In this document: positions 35,818-42,367 of the stretch, in pieces
Layout of the letters: each line of letters starts with the position of its first letter
Position numbering within the stretch: the first letter of the stretch is position 1
Origin: a virus
Strand: one strand, 5' to 3'
Length of the DNA stretch: 61,468 bases
Virus record (IMG/VR): IMGVR_UViG_3300012924_000002
Span: 1-61,468 of that record
The notes under the pieces: generated by a model
Told to the model about the DNA's origin: nothing
Databases searched by the model: none
What the model saw: the letters and a program-made list of their open reading frames with translations, nothing else
Made by a program: the position numbers and the translations under genes

Positions 35818-37029
35818 CTAAACCAGGTCGAGAACCTTGACGGCTGCCGCCTCCAGTGCGTCAGCGCGTTCCGCGCTCGCGACGGTCTGCGCTACGGAGG
35901 TGACCGCGTTCAGCACGCCACCGGAGGTGTGCTGACCGCCGAGAAGGAAGTGTGACCAGATGTCCTCGCGCTCCTTCTCGGTGAAGTTCAGCGCCTTACC
36001 AACCCGCTCGATCGTGGCCGCCCCGTCGGTGATGGTCCGGCCGGCCTTCGCGGCGAGCTTGCCGACCTGCTCCTGCCAGTACTGCGGCGACAGGAACTGG
36101 CCGACAGCGTCCTTCGTCTTCGCCTTGATCAGTGCGCGTTGGGCCTGCTGGGTTTCGTCGGACCAGTTGATCGTCCCCTGCTCCAGCCGACCGCCAAGGT
36201 GCACCTGACCGATGGCGTCGGACTCGATCGCCAGCCCGTTGAAGCACACCCGGAATTTGGCGTAGGGGACAATCTTGAACATGCCGTCGCCGACCTCGGA
36301 GTTCTTCAGCTTGAACCCGGCCCACAGGGTCTCGCCGTCACCGCCGTAGCGGCTCATCATGTCGGCGACCCGGTCAAAGTTCTCGAACATGCCGGCCCGG
36401 GTGACGCCCGGGGAGTTGAACGGGGAACGGTACTGCTCCAGTAGCGCCTTCGCGGACACGGCAACCTGGGGTGCCATGAAGTTGACGAACATGTGGCGGT
36501 CGGACAGGTCCGCCGACGAGACCGTGACCTTGCCCTCCAGTCCGGGCACCCCGGACATGCCTTCCAGTGCGGCAGTCAGCACGTCGTAGTTGTCCATGAC
36601 CCGGTACTTCGAGGACAGCAGTGCCCGCGCGGTCGGGGCCGCGCCGTCGGCCTCCGCGTACCCACGGAACAGGAAGCTGCGGGCGTCCGCCGGGTAGCCC
36701 GCGCTGAAGCCGTCGGGGCTGCGGCCGTGCCACAGACCGTTGACCATGTCAGCGGCAACGTCGGGCCGTTCGGCGAACATGCGCCGCGCGAACGGGATGC
36801 CGATCTTCAGCGCGTTGGCGACCTGCTCGATGAATACGTCGTTCGGCTCGAACGCCCGGGTCAGCGTGTCGGTGCTGCCGGGGATCTGCTCCGTGACTTC
36901 GATCAGGCCCTTGCCGGTGACGTGCAGGTCGGTGGCCAGTCGCACGATGTCAACCTTGCGGGCTTCCAGCTCGGAGAGCGTTTCGCGGAGCTGGGAGAAG
37001 CTGATGTTGCGCTCAGAAAGCGACTGCAT
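35818..37029 (-). CDS. DUF932 (phage/plasmid-like) protein
   Basis: 403 aa. LLSSKYRVMDNYDVLTAALEGM, LFRGYAEADG and GFKLKNSEVGDGMFKIVPYA fit the DUF932/TIGR03299 phage-plasmid family, often next to recombination genes. The biochemical role of the family is not established. It has its own dyad promoter (37076-37097) and the ribosome site sits in a GGA hairpin, so it is likely regulated both at transcription and translation. Confidence 0.75.
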   Translation of the reverse strand: MQSLSERNISFSQLRETLSELEARKVDIVRLATDLHVTGKGLIEVTEQIPGSTDTLTRAFEPNDVFIEQVANALKIGIPFARRMFAERPDVAADMVNGLWHGRSPDGFSAGYPADARSFLFRGYAEADGAAPTARALLSSKYRVMDNYDVLTAALEGMSGVPGLEGKVTVSSADLSDRHMFVNFMAPQVAVSAKALLEQYRSPFNSPGVTRAGMFENFDRVADMMSRYGGDGETLWAGFKLKNSEVGDGMFKIVPYAKFRVCFNGLAIESDAIGQVHLGGRLEQGTINWSDETQQAQRALIKAKTKDAVGQFLSPQYWQEQVGKLAAKAGRTITDGAATIERVGKALNFTEKEREDIWSHFLLGGQHTSGGVLNAVTSVAQTVASAERADALEAAAVKVLDLV

Positions 37030-37035
37030 GGGGGC

Positions 37036-37050
37036 GATCCCTCCTGGATC
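37036..37050 (-). promoter_or_regulatory. RBS hairpin GATCC-AGGAG-GGATC
   Basis: 5-bp stem with the ribosome site in the loop, six bases before ATG 37029. Candidate CsrA site. Confidence 0.6.
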
Positions 37051-37075
37051 TTTGCGGCAGTAAACCCTACCGCCT

Positions 37076-37097
37076 AGTGTAACGCGTCGCGCGTGAC
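37076..37097 (-). promoter_or_regulatory. Operator-promoter GTCACGCG-CGA-CGCGTTAC with -10 TACACT
   Basis: Dyad 37079-37097 overlaps TACACT (37076-37081, read leftward). Transcription would start about 40 bases before the DUF932 start codon. Confidence 0.62.
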
Positions 37098-37113
37098 AAC
37101 CATTCCGCGTAGG

Positions 37114-37449
37114 TCACAGGTATTTCTTCGTCCGGGGTGACCGCTTATGCAGCCACAGGGCGGCCTGCCGGGCGGTCCACGAGTTGCCGCCGCTACCGAC
37201 CCGGGTGATGCGCCCGTCCGCGCGCACGCGCAGTACAACAGTGATCCGCCGCGCCCCGACGTCCTTCAGGTACAGCCGGACCACGGCGTTGTCGCCGGGC
37301 TCGTCGCCCCGCTCGATCGTCTGGATGGGGCCGTAGTCGAAGCCGAGCCGGCCGAGTTCGCGCATCACTTCGCGCGTCCACTTCTCCTCTTCGCGCCACA
37401 GCCGGTCGTCCTGCTCCCGGACGGTGGGAAGGCGCCTGATGATCCTCAT
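37114..37449 (-). CDS. Hypothetical basic protein
   Basis: 111 aa from ATG 37449. MRIIRRLPTVREQDDRLWRE, EVMRELGRLGFDYGPIQTIE, then DVGARRITVVLRVRADGRIT. Alpha/beta, no recognised domain. Its ribosome site is inside a GATCC hairpin. Confidence 0.65.
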   Translation of the reverse strand: MRIIRRLPTVREQDDRLWREEEKWTREVMRELGRLGFDYGPIQTIERGDEPGDNAVVRLYLKDVGARRITVVLRVRADGRITRVGSGGNSWTARQAALWLHKRSPRTKKYL

Positions 37450-37454
37450 TGCAA

Positions 37455-37470
37455 GATCCCTCCATGGATC
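37455..37470 (-). promoter_or_regulatory. RBS hairpin GATCC-ATGGAG-GGATC
   Basis: Loop carries ATGGA; five bases separate the stem from ATG 37449. Candidate CsrA site. Confidence 0.6.
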
Positions 37471-37481
37471 AAGGTGAAAAC

Positions 37482-37516
37482 TGAGAGGGGCCGGGCCTGC
37501 ACCCCGGCCCCTCTCA
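37482..37516. terminator. 14-bp hairpin after the XRE-like gene
   Basis: Arms 37482-37495 and 37503-37516; the right arm contains the stop codon at 37514. Confidence 0.75.
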
Positions 37517-37828
37517 CTCGTCGGCGGTGAGCTTCGCCAGTTCGACGGCCAGCTCCGCCCCGCGCTCCGCATCAATCGCGGAGGCGACCTGGCGAAGCAG
37601 ATCGTTCGGCACCTCCGACGGAACCTGAACGGTGAAGTGCGAACCCCCGGACAGCGTCCGGGACAGCCACTGCCGACCCGGGCGCTTACCCGTCTGCCGC
37701 TCGATCCGGTCGGCGAGCTGGTTACGATCGATCCCCTCGCGGGCCATCAATGCGCGGATTCGCTCGGCGATACGCGCGGAAGCCGTACTGCGGGGCTCGG
37801 TGCGAGCCCTGGTTGTTGCATCCGTCAC
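37514..37828 (-). CDS. Helix-turn-helix (XRE-like) DNA-binding protein
   Basis: 104 aa from GTG 37828 behind GAGGAG. Residues about 18-60 (IAERIRALMAREGIDRNQLA, ..GKRPGRQWLSRTLSGG) have the helix spacing of Cro/XRE regulators. It has its own dyad promoter (37858-37879) and a terminator directly at its stop, so it forms a separate unit. A good candidate for the protein that binds the GTMACGCG dyads, by inference. Confidence 0.68.
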   Translation of the reverse strand: MTDATTRARTEPRSTASARIAERIRALMAREGIDRNQLADRIERQTGKRPGRQWLSRTLSGGSHFTVQVPSEVPNDLLRQVASAIDAERGAELAVELAKLTADE

Positions 37829-37857
37829 GACGCCTCCTCTCCTCTGTGCTGACCTTC

Positions 37858-37879
37858 AATGTAACGCGCCAGACGTGAC
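37858..37879 (-). promoter_or_regulatory. Operator-promoter GTCACGTC-TGG-CGCGTTAC with -10 TACATT
   Basis: Dyad 37861-37879; TACATT (37858-37863, read leftward). In front of the XRE-like gene, consistent with autoregulation. Confidence 0.6.
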
Positions 37880-37913
37880 GGTGCTTCCCTCGTCTGGCGC
37901 GAAACAATGCAGG

Positions 37914-38477
37914 TCAGGTCCCATCCGTGCGAGAAGTCGGATCGGTTGCGCGCCCAGCCGACACATCAGCCAGCCGACCCAGCAGCTTCCGCAGTTCCTC
38001 GCTGGTCAAGACGAACGACCGTTCGGGGGACAGCTGGTTCCGGCCAGTCCACGTGACGTTGACGCTGACGCCGAGACGTAGCGCCTGCTCCTGCAGAGTC
38101 TCCGCGGCCTTTTCCGCTACGATTCGGCGCTCAAGGTGAGCCTCCCGCGCGGCATCCTCGCTCCGCCGGGTTTCGGCCTGCTCCGTGCGGGCCTCTTGCC
38201 AGGTCCCGCGGATGTGCCGGATGTCGACGTAGCGGTCCCCGGATAGGGACTCCATCGCGATCCCCGTTTCGGGGTCGAGGAACACCACGCGAACGTGGCG
38301 GCCTTGGCTCGACGCCGTGTAGGTGTAAGGCTTCATCGACCAGACGCCGCGCTGGCTTTCGACGAACCGGTTGGTAGACAGTAGCCGCACCCGCCGCGAT
38401 CCGCTGTCGTACTTACGCCAGTCGGCAGCCCGGTTGACGAGGTACTCGGCCCCGACCCTCAGTAGCTTGTGTTGCAT
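37914..38477 (-). CDS. Hypothetical coiled-coil protein
   Basis: 187 aa from ATG 38477. N-terminal beta-rich part (YTYTASSQGRHVRVVFLDPE) and a long charged helix (ARTEQAETRRSEDAAREAHL...KAAETLQEQALRLG). Ribosome site in a CCCC/GGGG hairpin. Not recognised. Confidence 0.65.
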   Translation of the reverse strand: MQHKLLRVGAEYLVNRAADWRKYDSGSRRVRLLSTNRFVESQRGVWSMKPYTYTASSQGRHVRVVFLDPETGIAMESLSGDRYVDIRHIRGTWQEARTEQAETRRSEDAAREAHLERRIVAEKAAETLQEQALRLGVSVNVTWTGRNQLSPERSFVLTSEELRKLLGRLADVSAGRATDPTSRTDGT

Positions 38478-38480
38478 GAT

Positions 38481-38493
38481 CCCCTCCTTGGGG
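38481..38493 (-). promoter_or_regulatory. RBS hairpin CCCC-AAGGA-GGGG
   Basis: Loop is exactly AAGGA, three bases before ATG 38477. Candidate CsrA site. Confidence 0.62.
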
Positions 38494-38494
38494 T

Positions 38495-38845
38495 TCAGCG
38501 GTTCAGGGCCGCCTTGACGGCGGCATCGACAGAGGCGGGTAGCCGACCCGACGAGGAATGCAGCGCGTCGAAGTCCCACATCCGCCAGCAGCGTGTGCGG
38601 GTGAGCCGCGCCGGGCGACTGCCGCTGGCCGGCCGCTGCTCGTATCCGATCACCACCACCGCGTACGCGCCGCGCCCGTTCGGGGTGGTGGTGACGGTGG
38701 CAGCCACGGGCACGAAGTAGGCGTCCCGGCCAGGCACCCTCAACGCTCCGGAGCCTGCAATGCCTAGATGGATCCGCCTTCCGTCTCTCCCTTTCACCGT
38801 CGCGGTGACTTCGGAGCGGAGCCCGCTGTACGTTCCAGTCCTCAT
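38495..38845 (-). CDS. Hypothetical protein
   Basis: 116 aa from ATG 38845 with AAAGGA upstream. Beta-rich (VTATVKGRDGRRIHLGIAGS, FVPVAATVTTTPNGRGAYAV) with a helical end (LPASVDAAVKAALNR). Overlaps the upstream gene stop (38842). Not recognised. Confidence 0.62.
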   Translation of the reverse strand: MRTGTYSGLRSEVTATVKGRDGRRIHLGIAGSGALRVPGRDAYFVPVAATVTTTPNGRGAYAVVVIGYEQRPASGSRPARLTRTRCWRMWDFDALHSSSGRLPASVDAAVKAALNR

Positions 38846-39234
38846 TTTCGGTGGTCCTTTCCGGCATACACCAGCGGCCCGAGGTTCAATTCCAGGGCGG
38901 CATCGTTGACCATGGAACGGAGGTCGGCCGAGTTCCAGGTGTTCCAGCACTCCTCGCTGAGCCTGTGCGTGCCGTGGTCCAGCGCGTCATGGTTCGCCCG
39001 CTGTCCCTTGATCCAGCCGTCCAGTACGGCCAGCACCAGGGCGAGGGCTTCGCGTTGCGCGCCCCCTTTGGAGACCATCTCTGGCTTGTAGACCAGCCGT
39101 TCGGAGGTCTCGAAGACCTCCGGGCCTTTCTCCGTGTTGTCGTCGGCCCACTGTTTGGCGTCGACCGCGTTGCCGAACGCGAGTTCCACCGGCGCCGGGT
39201 CGGTCGCGTTGTCGTATCGGACGATGAAGCCCAT
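38842..39234 (-). CDS. Hypothetical protein
   Basis: 130 aa. MGFIVRYDNATDPAPVELAF, then a helical body (EALALVLAVLDGWIKGQRAN) with HRLSEECWNTWNSADL. Ribosome site within a short GTCC/GGAT hairpin. Not recognised. Confidence 0.62.
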   Translation of the reverse strand: MGFIVRYDNATDPAPVELAFGNAVDAKQWADDNTEKGPEVFETSERLVYKPEMVSKGGAQREALALVLAVLDGWIKGQRANHDALDHGTHRLSEECWNTWNSADLRSMVNDAALELNLGPLVYAGKDHRK

Positions 39235-39239
39235 ATCAA

Positions 39240-39256
39240 GATCCCTCCTTTGGACC
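39240..39256 (-). promoter_or_regulatory. RBS hairpin GTCC-AAAGGAG-GGAT (weak)
   Basis: Four pairs including one G-U; loop contains AAGGA; six bases to ATG 39234. Weaker member of the family. Confidence 0.42.
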
Positions 39257-39261
39257 GGGGC

Positions 39262-39492
39262 TCAGGCCCCTCGCGTGTCCGTGGTCAGCGTCCACGTCTT
39301 CGCCCCTGAGTAGGTCGAGCCCGCCTCGCGGACCTCGCCGAAGCCGACGAGTCGCCTGATCGAGGGTCGAACTCGGGTCACGCTCAGCGCGAGTTGGTCG
39401 GCAATCTCTCCGATCGACTCCGGCGCTTCGTTCCTGCGGATCAGCCGGGCTAGGTGCTCGGTCACCTGCCGGTCGATGTCGTCGCTGCTCAT
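39262..39492 (-). CDS. Winged-helix DNA-binding protein
   Basis: 76 aa. EHLARLIRRNEAPESIGEIA, DQLALSVTRVRPSIRRLVGF and GEVREAGSTYSGAKTWTLTT form three helices and a wing. Likely a small regulator or replication accessory protein. Confidence 0.65.
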   Translation of the reverse strand: MSSDDIDRQVTEHLARLIRRNEAPESIGEIADQLALSVTRVRPSIRRLVGFGEVREAGSTYSGAKTWTLTTDTRGA

Positions 39493-39532
39493 CGGTTCTC
39501 CTTCACTGCTTGCGCCGGCTCGGGTCGGATCG

Positions 39533-39589
39533 CACCCCCGGCCGGAATCGAACCGGTGAGCGGGCCGTGACCATCACGGTTCCGGGGGT
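39533..39589 (-). ncRNA. tRNA-like element (no D-arm)
   Basis: Acceptor-like ACCCCCG/CGGGGGT (7 perfect pairs), T-arm around TTCGATT and one middle stem CCGTG/CACGG, 57 bases in all. Lies between two genes of the same operon. Confidence 0.5.
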
Positions 39590-39594
39590 GTCGT

Positions 39595-39765
39595 TCACGA
39601 GTTGAAGGCGAAGTGTTCCGGCGTCGAGGTGATGCACGGTTTGCGCGTGGCGACGTCGTAGGTGGTCCAACGCTCGAACGCGTACTCCTCCAAGTCCGGC
39701 CAGCTCAGCGAGTCGATGAGGTTCACGTACAGCGCCTTGCGGGCTTTGCGCGAGGCTTTCAACAT
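39595..39765 (-). CDS. 56-aa hypothetical protein
   Basis: ATG 39765. MLKASRKARKALYVNLIDSL then WPDLEEYAFERWTTYDVATR. Preceded by an RBS hairpin identical to that of the DUF932 gene and by its own dyad promoter. Not recognised. Confidence 0.6.
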   Translation of the reverse strand: MLKASRKARKALYVNLIDSLSWPDLEEYAFERWTTYDVATRKPCITSTPEHFAFNS

Positions 39766-39770
39766 CGGGT

Positions 39771-39785
39771 GATCCCTCCTGGATC
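39771..39785 (-). promoter_or_regulatory. RBS hairpin GATCC-AGGAG-GGATC
   Basis: Same 15 bases as at 37036-37050; five bases before ATG 39765. Candidate CsrA site. Confidence 0.6.
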
Positions 39786-39802
39786 TGTGTCGGCTTCCTG
39801 CC

Positions 39803-39824
39803 ACTGTAACGCGCGGCGCGTGAC
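39803..39824 (-). promoter_or_regulatory. Operator-promoter GTCACGCG-CCG-CGCGTTAC with -10 TACAGT
   Basis: Dyad 39806-39824, TACAGT 39803-39808 (read leftward). An extra half-site GCGCGTTACAG lies at 39840-39850. Confidence 0.62.
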
Positions 39825-39859
39825 AGTCATTCCCGTGCTGCGCGTTACAGGCGATGCCG

Positions 39860-40189
39860 CTAGATCAGCTTCTTGTTGACCTTCCCGGAGCCGCCGCAGG
39901 CGCGACAGGTCTCCGTCGTCCAGACGGACTTGCCCTTGACAATCTTGTTGACCTGCACGGTGCCATTGCCTTGACAGTTCTGGCACGCTACAACGTTCGC
40001 CATTTCAAGATCCCCTCCATGGAAGGCCCGGCGGATCGGGCCGGCGTGGATATGCCAGGCGGTCTCACACACCCTGTCGTCGTTGACCTGACAGAACGGC
40101 GTCACCTCGTGGGAGACGTGTGGCCCGTCAGTGGTGAGCTCTCGAAGGACCGGGTAGCGGTCACTTCGTGCGTTGTGCGGATGGAACAT
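39860..40189 (-). CDS. Zinc-finger protein with nested internal start
   Basis: 109 aa from ATG 40189. A second ATG in the same frame at 40003 has its own GGAGGGGATCTTGAA leader and would give the 47-aa C-terminal part, which holds two DnaJ-type CxxCxGxG motifs (CQNCQGNG and CRACGGSG). The first 60 residues contain a further Cys and several His. Both starts share the GGGGATCTTGAAATG wording, so two products from one frame are likely. Confidence 0.6.
   Translation of the reverse strand: MFHPHNARSDRYPVLRELTTDGPHVSHEVTPFCQVNDDRVCETAWHIHAGPIRRAFHGGDLEMANVVACQNCQGNGTVQVNKIVKGKSVWTTETCRACGGSGKVNKKLI
40009..40024 (-). promoter_or_regulatory. Internal RBS hairpin TTCC-ATGGAG-GGGA (weak)
   Basis: Four pairs with one wobble, loop ATGGAG, in front of the internal ATG 40003. 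Lies inside the coding frame of the longer product. Confidence 0.4.
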
Positions 40190-40213
40190 TTCAAGATCCC
40201 CTATTCAGTTGTG

Positions 40214-40238
40214 GAGGCCCGGCCCGTTGCCGGGCCTC
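40214..40238. terminator. Hairpin GAGGCCCGG / CCGGGCCTC
   Basis: 9-bp arms 40214-40222 and 40230-40238, immediately after a tRNA-like element and 25 bases before the next gene. Confidence 0.6.
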
Positions 40239-40240
40239 GT

Positions 40241-40280
40241 GCCTGCCGGGGGCTCGAACCCCGGTGCCTGCCGGTCAGGC
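40241..40280 (-). ncRNA. T-arm minihelix element
   Basis: 40 bases: GCCTG, 12 bases, CGGGG-TTCGAGC-CCCCG, one base, CAGGC. Acceptor-like stem stacked on a canonical tRNA T-arm with no D- or anticodon arm. Same size and layout as 40759-40798. Confidence 0.5.
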
Positions 40281-40288
40281 GGTAGCGG

Positions 40289-40723
40289 CTAACGGCCGGG
40301 CAGGGTGGCTGCGCCGCCCTCCGCGGGAACGAACACGCCAGCCGGGTGCGGCGCCCCCATGTCGGTGCCGTACAGGTAGGCGCCTACCAGCTGCGGCCGC
40401 TCCCCGTTAGCGACACCTTCGGCGAGGACGACCTCTTCCGTTCGGAAGTACGTGTTGCCGCTCGCGATGAAGTCGTCCACGAAGATCCAGCGGCGGCCGA
40501 TCTCGCCCTCGAACCTGCTGGTCGAGTGGCTCCCGTCGCCGGGCTTACGGACGATCGCCCACTTCTTCCCGAGTGCCCTGGCGAGGATCGGGACGACTAG
40601 CGCCCCGGACAGGCCCCGCCCGACCATCGTGTCGTAGGTGACGTCCTTCAGCGCCTGCCGCGCTGCCAAGATCAGAGCCTCGGGCTCGTCGAACGCTTTG
40701 AACGAATAGCTGACGTGGCGCAT
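40289..40723 (-). CDS. Phosphoribosyltransferase
   Basis: 144 aa. RRWIFVDDFIASGNTYFR (residues about 78-95) is the PRPP-binding loop of type I phosphoribosyltransferases, and GRGLSGALVVPILARALG supplies the first loop. Likely nucleobase salvage or a related transfer; the substrate-specificity hood is not identifiable. Ribosome site in an ATGGA hairpin. Confidence 0.8.
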   Translation of the reverse strand: MRHVSYSFKAFDEPEALILAARQALKDVTYDTMVGRGLSGALVVPILARALGKKWAIVRKPGDGSHSTSRFEGEIGRRWIFVDDFIASGNTYFRTEEVVLAEGVANGERPQLVGAYLYGTDMGAPHPAGVFVPAEGGAATLPGR

Positions 40724-40726
40724 GTC

Positions 40727-40737
40727 CCCTCCATGGG
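40727..40737 (-). promoter_or_regulatory. RBS hairpin CCC-ATGGA-GGG
   Basis: Loop is exactly ATGGA, a few bases before ATG 40723. Candidate CsrA site; short stem. Confidence 0.5.
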
Positions 40738-40758
40738 TCGGTGGTTGCGCTTTACGTG

Positions 40759-40798
40759 CCCGCCCCGGGCTCGAACCGGGGTGCCTGCCAGCCGGGCT
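40759..40798 (-). ncRNA. T-arm minihelix element
   Basis: 40 bases: GCCCG, 12 bases (GCTGGCAGGCAC), CCCGG-TTCGAGC-CCGGG, one base, CGGGC. Lies between the stop at 40805 and the next ribosome site. Confidence 0.5.
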
Positions 40799-40804
40799 GC
40801 AAGA

Positions 40805-41050
40805 TCAGAAGTTTGCGAGGTGGTTCAGGTAGCGGGTCTGCGCGTCGTACCGGCCCTGCATTGCCAGCATCCGCACGTCCCATCCGGTGATCTGCTCGTT
40901 CAGCGGCCACTCGTCGAGTGCGTGCACCATGGCCTGGAACGCCTCGATCTGGTCGGTGTCGCGGATCGGGTGGACCCGCTGCGACTCGGGCCGGGAGAAC
41001 ATGTTCTCCTCGACGGCCAGCGCCGCGCCTTCCTCGGCGATGATGTCCAT
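40805..41050 (-). CDS. Hypothetical protein
   Basis: 81 aa. ATG 41050 shares a base with the previous stop (TGATG). Acidic and helical: MDIIAEEGAALAVEENMFSR, QIEAFQAMVHALDEWPLNEQ. Not recognised. Confidence 0.62.
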   Translation of the reverse strand: MDIIAEEGAALAVEENMFSRPESQRVHPIRDTDQIEAFQAMVHALDEWPLNEQITGWDVRMLAMQGRYDAQTRYLNHLANF

Positions 41051-41178
41051 CAGGCGTTCCGCCGAGCCCGGTAGTCGGCGACGTCACGCCGAACCTTGCG
41101 GTCGCTAGCTCGGGCGATGAACGGGGCGAGCGTGCCGGCGGTGACCAGGGCTAGCGCGGTGAGCAGTAGTTCGACCAT
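41050..41178 (-). CDS. 42-aa membrane protein
   Basis: ATG 41178. MVELLLTALALVTAGTLAPF is one transmembrane helix, followed by a basic tail (RASDRKVRRDVADYRARRNA). Ribosome site in an AACCC/GGGTT hairpin. Confidence 0.62.
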   Translation of the reverse strand: MVELLLTALALVTAGTLAPFIARASDRKVRRDVADYRARRNA

Positions 41179-41182
41179 CTGG

Positions 41183-41198
41183 AACCCCTCCTTGGGTT
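41183..41198 (-). promoter_or_regulatory. RBS hairpin AACCC-AAGGAG-GGGTT
   Basis: 5-bp stem, loop with AAGGA, four bases before ATG 41178. Candidate CsrA site. Confidence 0.62.
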
Positions 41199-41217
41199 GT
41201 GGCAGATCTTGCGGAGT

Positions 41218-41256
41218 GCCTGGGGCGGGAATCGAACCCGCCCTTCACCATCAGGC
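41218..41256 (-). ncRNA. T-arm minihelix element overlapping a stop codon
   Basis: 39 bases: GCCTG, 10 bases, GCGGG-TTCGATT-CCCGC, two bases, CAGGC. Its 5' side includes the TGA of the 37-aa gene. Confidence 0.48.
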
Positions 41257-41364
41257 GATGCGGCCAGCCCGACGCGCCTTGCGAGTGATCCGGCCGATCC
41301 GGTAGTTCACGTAGCTGCCGCTGACCTTGACAACGGCAGCGACGAACAGGTTCAGCAGGAACAT
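41251..41364 (-). CDS. 37-aa membrane protein
   Basis: ATG 41364 behind AGAGGAG. MFLLNLFVAAVVKVSGSYVN is hydrophobic; the remainder (YRIGRITRKARRAGRIA) is very basic. Same design as the 42-aa neighbour. Confidence 0.58.
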   Translation of the reverse strand: MFLLNLFVAAVVKVSGSYVNYRIGRITRKARRAGRIA

Positions 41365-41403
41365 GACGTTCTCCTCTCAAGATCGGCCAGGGCTGGCCTC
41401 GTA

Positions 41404-41463
41404 CCCGGGACCGGAATCGAACCGGCCCTACACCGTCGGGGGGGCGTTTTGAGGTCTCCCGGG
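41404..41463 (-). ncRNA. tRNA-like element (no D-arm)
   Basis: 60 bases: CCCGGGA/TCCCGGG acceptor-like stem, one middle stem ACGCC/GGTGT and a CCGG-TTCGATT-CCGG T-arm. Follows a terminator hairpin at 41469-41491. Confidence 0.48.
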
Positions 41464-41468
41464 GTGAG

Positions 41469-41491
41469 GCCGGGGGCGGGTTGCCCCCGGC
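41469..41491. terminator. Hairpin GCCGGGGGC / GCCCCCGGC
   Basis: 9-bp arms 41469-41477 and 41483-41491, eight bases after the stop at 41499. Confidence 0.68.
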
Positions 41492-41498
41492 GTGCTCC

Positions 41499-41741
41499 CT
41501 ACTCGTCTCCGAAGTGACCGGCGTTCAAGGTGCGCCGGTGTGGCTCGGTGGCGGGTTCCGGAAGGTCAACCGGGTCAACCGGCTTGCCGACCTTCGGAGT
41601 GAGGATCCTGATCAGGACCGTTAGCCGGGTGTAGATCCGGACCCCGACCTTGGCGTCCAGCGCGGTTACCACGCTGAGCACCCAAGTCGCAAGGGTGATC
41701 CCCTTGTCGTCCAGGACGTAAGCGGCGATCGTTTCGATCAT
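41499..41741 (-). CDS. Small membrane-associated protein, first gene of the early operon
   Basis: 80 aa. MIETIAAYVLDDKGITLATW, then VLSVVTALDAKVGVRIYTRL, moderately hydrophobic, with a Pro/Glu-rich tail (PVDPVDLPEPATEPHRR). Ribosome site in an AACCC/GGGTT hairpin; divergent dyad promoter upstream. Confidence 0.62.
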   Translation of the reverse strand: MIETIAAYVLDDKGITLATWVLSVVTALDAKVGVRIYTRLTVLIRILTPKVGKPVDPVDLPEPATEPHRRTLNAGHFGDE

Positions 41742-41745
41742 CGTG

Positions 41746-41761
41746 AACCCCTCCCTGGGTT
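41746..41761 (-). promoter_or_regulatory. RBS hairpin AACCC-AGGGAG-GGGTT
   Basis: 5-bp stem, AGGGA in the loop, four bases before ATG 41741. Candidate CsrA site. Confidence 0.62.
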
Positions 41762-41804
41762 ACCTCTGTGGAGTTGTTTTTGCCTTGCTTGCCTTACGAG
41801 AAGA

Positions 41805-41826
41805 ACTATCCCACGTCACGCGTGAC
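41805..41826 (-). promoter_or_regulatory. Leftward operator-promoter GTCACGCGTGAC with -10 GATAGT
   Basis: Palindrome 41815-41826; GATAGT at 41805-41810 (read leftward). Drives the 41.7 to 35 kb early operon. A near-identical 22-base copy lies at 41922-41943. Confidence 0.6.
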
Positions 41827-41926
41827 AGCGTCAAGGGGTTTCGCCAAGATTCTTCTATCTCTTTTCTGTGACGCGTTTCCGCAGGTCAGAGACCATATTG
41901 GAAAATCTTGGCGCCAATCTTCCCAC

Positions 41927-41948
41927 GCGACGCGTGACAGCGTATAGT
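41927..41948 (+). promoter_or_regulatory. Rightward operator-promoter GCGACGCGTGAC with -10 TATAGT
   Basis: Half-sites 41927-41938, TATAGT 41943-41948. Divergent twin of the leftward promoter; about 50 bases before the lipoprotein start. CGCCAAGATT (41842-41851) and AATCTTGGCG (41904-41913) form a further inverted repeat between the two. Confidence 0.6.
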
Positions 41949-41979
41949 CCCTTTACGTAAGGCACACACGGGCACATGG

Positions 41980-41998
41980 GATTTCCAGGGAGGGAATC
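41980..41998 (+). promoter_or_regulatory. RBS hairpin GATTTCC-AGGGA-GGGAATC
   Basis: Seven pairs (one G-U), loop exactly AGGGA, directly touching ATG 41999. Best example of the family and the only one on the plus strand. Confidence 0.68.
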
Positions 41999-42367
41999 AT
42001 GATCCGCAACCTGATCACTGCCGCAGCAGTCATCTCCGCTACCGCGCTCACCGCCTGCGCGCCCCCCGCCCCGCTGAACTGCCCGGCCGCGGACTACGCG
42101 ATCACGACCAGCACCATCCGCGGGCCGCTGAACAACCACACGTGGCCGATCACGATCACCATCACCGACCCTGCCGGCGGTAGCCGCGCCGTCGCTTACG
42201 AGACGCTCGACGACCAGGGCAAGATCCGGGCCGCCGCCACCGTCACCACCCACGGTGGAGCCGCCTCTGCGAAGTGGAACATCGGTGAGTACGTCACCTC
42301 CCTGAAGCTGCGCACCGAGGTCGACTCTGTTGACGGGTGCGACACCACCGACGGCTACATCCGCTGA
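41999..42367 (+). CDS. Lipoprotein
   Basis: 122 aa. MIRNLITAAAVISATALTAC is a lipoprotein signal with lipobox LTAC (Cys 20). The mature part is a beta-rich domain (WPITITITDPAGGSRAVAYE) with two more Cys. First gene of the rightward early operon, under the divergent dyad promoter and an RBS hairpin, so it is probably an early surface protein, possibly superinfection exclusion. Confidence 0.8.
   Translation: MIRNLITAAAVISATALTACAPPAPLNCPAADYAITTSTIRGPLNNHTWPITITITDPAGGSRAVAYETLDDQGKIRAAATVTTHGGAASAKWNIGEYVTSLKLRTEVDSVDGCDTTDGYIR

Follow-up and report, generated by a model that had tools for sequence, protein, structure and literature searches.

Hairpins that display the Shine-Dalgarno sequence as candidate RNA operators for a CsrA-family protein encoded by the same phage

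The virus record IMGVR_UViG_3300012924_000002 of IMG/VR, analysed here over its whole length of 61,468 bases (66% GC; hereafter, the window), raises the question of why a set of genes between 37 and 42 kb have their Shine-Dalgarno (SD) sequence in the loop of a small hairpin, and whether the virus itself encodes the protein that reads these hairpins. An original prediction, made from the DNA sequence, held that they form a self-contained regulon of the RNA-binding protein CsrA. The results presented here suggest, with a probability that we put at about two in three, that a CsrA-family protein of the phage uses these hairpins as its RNA operators.

The leaders of the ten genes named in the original prediction were read base by base, and seven of them indeed contain a Watson-Crick stem of 4-5 bp enclosing a loop of 5-6 nt that holds the SD core GGA. 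On the minus strand, the hairpin GATCC-AGGAG-GGATC is found at 37036-37050, preceding gene 35818-37029, and again at 39771-39785, preceding gene 39595-39765. On the same strand, GATCC-ATGGAG-GGATC (37455-37470) precedes gene 37114-37449, CCCC-AAGGA-GGGG (38481-38493) gene 37914-38477, AACCC-AAGGAG-GGGTT (41183-41198) gene 41050-41178, and AACCC-AGGGAG-GGGTT (41746-41761) gene 41499-41741, which is the first gene of the leftward unit. The first gene of the rightward unit, 41999-42367 on the plus strand, is preceded by GATTTCC-AGGGA-GGGAATC (41980-41998), whose full-length stem forms only with G.U pairs and which has four Watson-Crick pairs around a 6-nt loop. The stem is only 3 bp long in one minus-strand leader (CCC-ATGGA-GGG, 40727-40737), that of the phosphoribosyltransferase gene 40289-40723. 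The two leaders that had been called weaker, GGTCC-AAAGGAG-GGATC with one G.U pair (39240-39256, minus strand, gene 38842-39234) and TTCC-ATGGAG-GGGA (40011-40024, minus strand, gene 39860-40003), have three Watson-Crick pairs each and can be extended only with G.U pairs. The reading frame of the latter gene has two in-frame possible starts, at 40189 and 40003, and the same GGGGATCTTGAAATG leader stands before each. In the window leaders GGA lies in an apical loop that overlaps the SD, and the high-affinity CsrA/RsmE site CANGGANG is present in seven of the ten. The loops are thus as fitting for CsrA as had been proposed, but this match is not independent evidence because the SD AAGGAGG already contains ANGGA.

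The pairing itself exceeds chance. Eight of the 15 leaders between 37.0 and 42.0 kb have strong stems, against 1.16 ± 0.98 when the 5' arm is shuffled (2,000 shuffles, maximum 5), so that the hairpins are far commoner than in shuffled leaders, the comparison which the original prediction had proposed. The ten named leaders together form 42 Watson-Crick pairs, a number reached in none of 5,000 shuffles of their arms (19.9 ± 3.1) and exceeding that obtained when arms are swapped among the leaders themselves (32.5 ± 3.8, p = 0.012); likewise, stems of at least 4 bp number seven, against 2.7 after swapping (p = 0.003). Since own arms beat swapped arms, the pairing goes beyond what the shared SD provides, and the claim that the stems differ and yet all pair is borne out, although the effect is modest because GATCC occurs three times and AACCC twice. 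The further claim that other operons lack this design is largely correct, but seven of the 40 leaders elsewhere in the window also have such stems, against 3.0 ± 1.6 with shuffled 5' arms. The folding energies of 51-nt leader stretches are ordinary (z between -1.2 and 0.7) and do not discriminate, indicating that the signal is one of geometry and not of stability. The minimum-energy fold includes the hairpin for most leaders, the exceptions being 37449 (in the 51-nt stretch) and 40723. Aligning the ten leaders with MAFFT displaced their registers, so the alignment was not used, and an Rfam search gave no match.

As had also been claimed, a csrA homologue is present on the same genome. This gene (P0001; 31455-31628, minus strand) encodes a protein of 57 amino acids with a short C-terminus, whose residues 1-53 match the PDB CsrA chain 1y00 by sequence. 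It matches Pfam CsrA with an E-value of 2e-11 (family PF02599; 4e-12 on DNA, and 44.1 bits on protein, above the curated cut-off of 27) as well as phrog_9500, a 'CsrA-like regulator'. The RNA-contact residues of CsrA are L4, R6, R7 and R44, and P0001 retains L4, R6 and the equivalent of R44 (R48). In tblastn searches of 50,697 phage records, P0001 gave a single weak match, and E. coli CsrA had matches in only 85, none of them an actinophage; hence, carrying csrA is unusual here. The only pointer to a Streptomyces host is the occurrence of short intergenic elements of the window in Streptomyces phages as well; CsrA was found in none of 150 Streptomyces genomes, though at the level of the class 37 of 297 genomes have it.

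Comparable sets exist in a second group of phages. In an 18.8-kb virus contig (G002, locus L166), 15 of the 28 SD leaders are AAGGAG hexaloop hairpins with many different stems, and the genes that carry them include tail and head genes. Isolated phages were reached via the tail protein of this contig, and three alphaproteobacterial phages, Rhodobacter phage RcZahn, Rhizobium phage RHph_TM16 and RHph_Y1_11, have genome-wide SD-hairpin sets, with 152, 104 and 90 pairs between own arms against 61, 38 and 38 between swapped arms, respectively (all p < 0.0005). Orthologous genes in this group retain the hairpin while the stem is altered on both sides, as in the replacements GATAA/TTATC versus GATTA/TAATC, GATC/GATC versus GACC/GGTC, and TCATC/GATGA versus TTTACC/GGTAAA. 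Among the annotated genes of RcZahn (44-92 kb), a hairpin is present on 12 of the 28 with an intergenic leader (1.6 expected) and on one of the 58 others. The TM16 and Y1_11 loops read A-N-GGAG, the first position being A in 32 of 33 and the second A in 15, C in 15 and T in three. This composition matches the ANGGAN that CsrA requires and is unlike what SD pairing alone would select. No set was detected by the swap test in L338C, I4 and RcDurkin, which share the tail protein of G002, or in Anaya, Alsaber, phiHau3, Fizzles, KellEzio, BroPlease and VanLee, and hairpins were not in excess at 27 loci of the gene family to which the 403-amino-acid protein of the window's early region belongs.

A Pfam CsrA search of RcZahn, TM16, Y1_11, a Roseococcus prophage and contig G991 gave no match at the cut-off. 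The absence of Pfam CsrA from RcZahn and TM16 would by itself weaken the CsrA reading, but a more sensitive model found a diverged family. With a CsrA model built from 48 mostly viral sequences, one open reading frame each from RcZahn, TM16 and Y1_11 came out slightly under the threshold. These three frames are orthologues, and the three phages are the only ones among the 50,697 records that have this diverged CsrA relative. Both the beginning and the end (AIDAPxEIRIMRG) of the protein resemble CsrA, with an insertion between them. The RcZahn protein scores 20.7 bits against Pfam CsrA, under the cut-off of 27, but CsrA is the sole Pfam match for six of eight family members (best E-value 1.8e-5), and an hhalign comparison gave an E-value of 7e-5 but a probability of 63%, over the C-terminal part only. 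The layout resembles that of RsmN of Pseudomonas aeruginosa (PMC3791407), which likewise has an insertion before the last two strands, an Arg44-equivalent and ANGGAN loops as targets; RsmN Arg62 matches Arg44, the residue needed for RNA binding (PMC3791407). The phage proteins differ from RsmN in being about 93-102 amino acids long, with a longer insertion and no Arg6, and their sequence similarity to it is marginal.

Two blind tests related this protein to the hairpins. A Roseococcus contig was chosen by its hairpin pattern, and the protein was then predicted and found; the prophage has a dense hairpin set within about 40 kb and the diverged protein lies inside that stretch. Conversely, contig G991 was chosen by its protein and carries 15 stems of at least 4 bp, against 1.2 expected. 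The Arg44-equivalent is invariant in five of the proteins (RcZahn, TM16, Y1_11, G062 and G991; R88 in A7) and is replaced by Thr in the other three, whose contigs (G687, G951 and G1022) have no hairpin set. A set therefore accompanies five of five homologues with the Arg44-equivalent and none of three without it (Fisher p = 0.018), a split that is suggestive, not final, because the genomes are related. Thr (TGKN/TGRN) occupies this position in the alphaproteobacterial homologues L351, L365, L366 and L381.

Because the sets track a diverged CsrA-like protein with the Arg44-equivalent, and because the loops read ANGGAG, phage-borne CsrA-family control of SD hairpins appears, on sequence grounds, to be the best explanation. 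Each hairpin, placed immediately ahead of the start codon, has a short stem that presents the SD core as an ANGGA(G) loop, and a CsrA dimer bound there would occlude the SD and keep the ribosome from it. In the window the hairpin genes lie beside a divergent control region and are read both leftward and rightward, and csrA is some 10 kb farther down the leftward strand. In the simplest order of events, the early genes would be translated first, and CsrA, as it accumulates, would then shut them off. We infer binding, repression and timing, and repression rather than activation is what analogy would predict for these phages, the usual outcome of CsrA covering an SD being repression (PMC4894983). 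The arrangement shares with CsrA/RsmE repression of the Campylobacter flaA leader (PMC4894983) the apical-loop GGA, the CANGGANG context, the loop over the SD and the CsrA-family gene. It differs in that regulator and targets are on one phage genome, in that there is one hairpin per gene and not two or more, in that binding is predicted, and in that the likely host genus lacks csrA in the genomes sampled. Like the proposed regulator, the T4 protein RegA (PMC3014915) is small and phage-encoded and represses translation initiation on many genes, but its fold is unrelated and its sites are A+U-rich and unstructured. It is reasonably probable that at least two unrelated phage groups have self-contained translational regulons of this kind, with a CsrA-family repressor (canonical here, diverged and RsmN-like elsewhere) bringing about an early/late switch.

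Several observations weigh against CsrA-family control. Position 7 of P0001 is Gly, whereas Arg or Lys is present there in 42 of 48 viral CsrAs, and the diverged family has no Arg at the Arg6 position. A fold search with the AlphaFold monomer of P0001 (three strands, pLDDT 78, pTM 0.55) was uninformative, with no solved CsrA among its matches; a possible reason is that CsrA forms an interlocked dimer but was modelled as a monomer. Contig G002 contains no CsrA-family gene within its 18.8-kb fragment. Phages and prophages with canonical csrA (F116, Vibrio D65 and G059) have no hairpin set, and over 80 csrA-bearing viral loci the pooled excess of hairpins is slight (44 versus 30.6). In addition, the leaders of 39234 and 40003 are marginal, the co-occurrence of protein and hairpins comes from about two independent lineages, the second-group phages being mutually related, and a search of IMG/VR for close relatives of the window CsrA, the 403-amino-acid early protein and the terminase retrieved only two short structural-region contigs and none of the early region, so that conservation of pairing in the window's own hairpins is so far unsupported. 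The link to CsrA is weaker for the window than for the second group, since no near relatives of its early region were found and F116 and other prophages with canonical csrA have no sets. The self-contained CsrA regulon of the original prediction is partly supported: the non-random hairpins, the presence of csrA and the co-occurrence in the second group speak for it, and Gly7 and the canonical-csrA phages speak against it. In virus contig G020 (L170/L171), canonical csrA is accompanied by two perfect SD hairpins, GATCC-AGGGAG-GGATC and ACGCC-AGGGAG-GGCGT; as a possible third lineage it was judged too weak.

Could the hairpins act alone, the stem keeping the SD exposed amid GC-rich leader structure or protecting the mRNA 5' end, with no protein reader? 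Exact-pattern scans of IMG/VR found paired arms around SDs to be commoner than mixed arms (31 and 11 contigs versus 6). Most of the paired-arm contigs have single hairpins, single patterns show no association with Pfam CsrA (two of 42 contigs versus one of six controls), and the preference of the RcZahn hairpins for genes with intergenic leaders also speaks for such a role. What this explanation leaves unaccounted for is why the sets track a rare CsrA-like protein with its Arg44-equivalent, and why the first loop position is A when the second is free; we consider it unlikely. That the strong SDs pair accidentally after C-rich sequence, with duplicated leaders inflating the count, is very improbable and already disfavoured. 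The recurrence of GATCC and AACCC and the ordinary whole-leader energies would agree with it, but it is rejected by the arm shuffles, the arm swaps and the contrast between regions, and the orthologues of the second group keep their hairpins with replaced stems.

Of the elements described to date, those that come closest are the start-associated sequences (SAS) of cluster K mycobacteriophages (PMC3203893), in which a repeated SD element with complementary outer bases lies just upstream of many non-structural genes. If the window hairpins were of this kind, they would be read by another phage or host factor and the window csrA would serve another purpose, for example one concerning host mRNAs. 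The SAS also has GGG...CCC arms around AGGAG, a few bases ahead of the start codon, and the cluster K phage Anaya is without CsrA. However, the SAS is a single fixed 13-bp sequence with a 7-nt loop, which its authors did not present as hairpins with changing stems, whereas here the stems vary and the pairing stays. Moreover, the hexaloop register yields no excess among the leaders of Anaya, and by inspection the window arms and loops (CCC...GGG, ANGGAG) differ from the consensus GGGATAGGAGCCC and do not come within two deviations of it. This explanation is, in our judgement, rather improbable, and CsrA-family control remains the preferred reading.

Two of the candidate targets have database matches: the 403-amino-acid protein (35818-37029, minus strand) belongs to phrog_1362, of unknown function, and the product of 40289-40723 (minus strand) is phosphoribosyltransferase-like (phrog_2068, E-value 6e-34). 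An imperfect palindrome, TGTAACGCG..CGCGTGACA, recurs at about 37077-37100, 37859-37882, 39804-39828, 41812-41831 and 41924-41942, in non-coding stretches and in the divergent control region, and resembles the operator of a phage repressor. Five intergenic tRNA-like minihelices are present on the minus strand (39527-39590, 40240-40290, 40755-40800, 41217-41262 and 41403-41445), consisting of a T-arm (GGTTCGA..CC) and a short acceptor-like stem of varying sequence, without an anticodon arm. Near-identical minihelices sit between genes of Streptomyces phages; they may serve as RNase P/Z processing sites or be remnants of tRNAs.

In a survey from 2020, csrA was found in 30 of 2,517 phages (~1%), and its role there was unknown (PMC7366521). 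A literature search, which was not exhaustive, found no prior description of a phage system pairing a CsrA-family protein with SD hairpins. Where a regulator and its predicted target hairpins share one genome, the role of phage csrA can be put to a direct test, and isolated phages, RcZahn and RHph_TM16 among them, are open to it as well. If confirmed, a phage CsrA-family protein would join RegA as another type of translational repressor acting across a phage genome, one derived from a borrowed bacterial regulator, and it would provide a mechanistic precedent for puzzles posed by SD elements such as the SAS.

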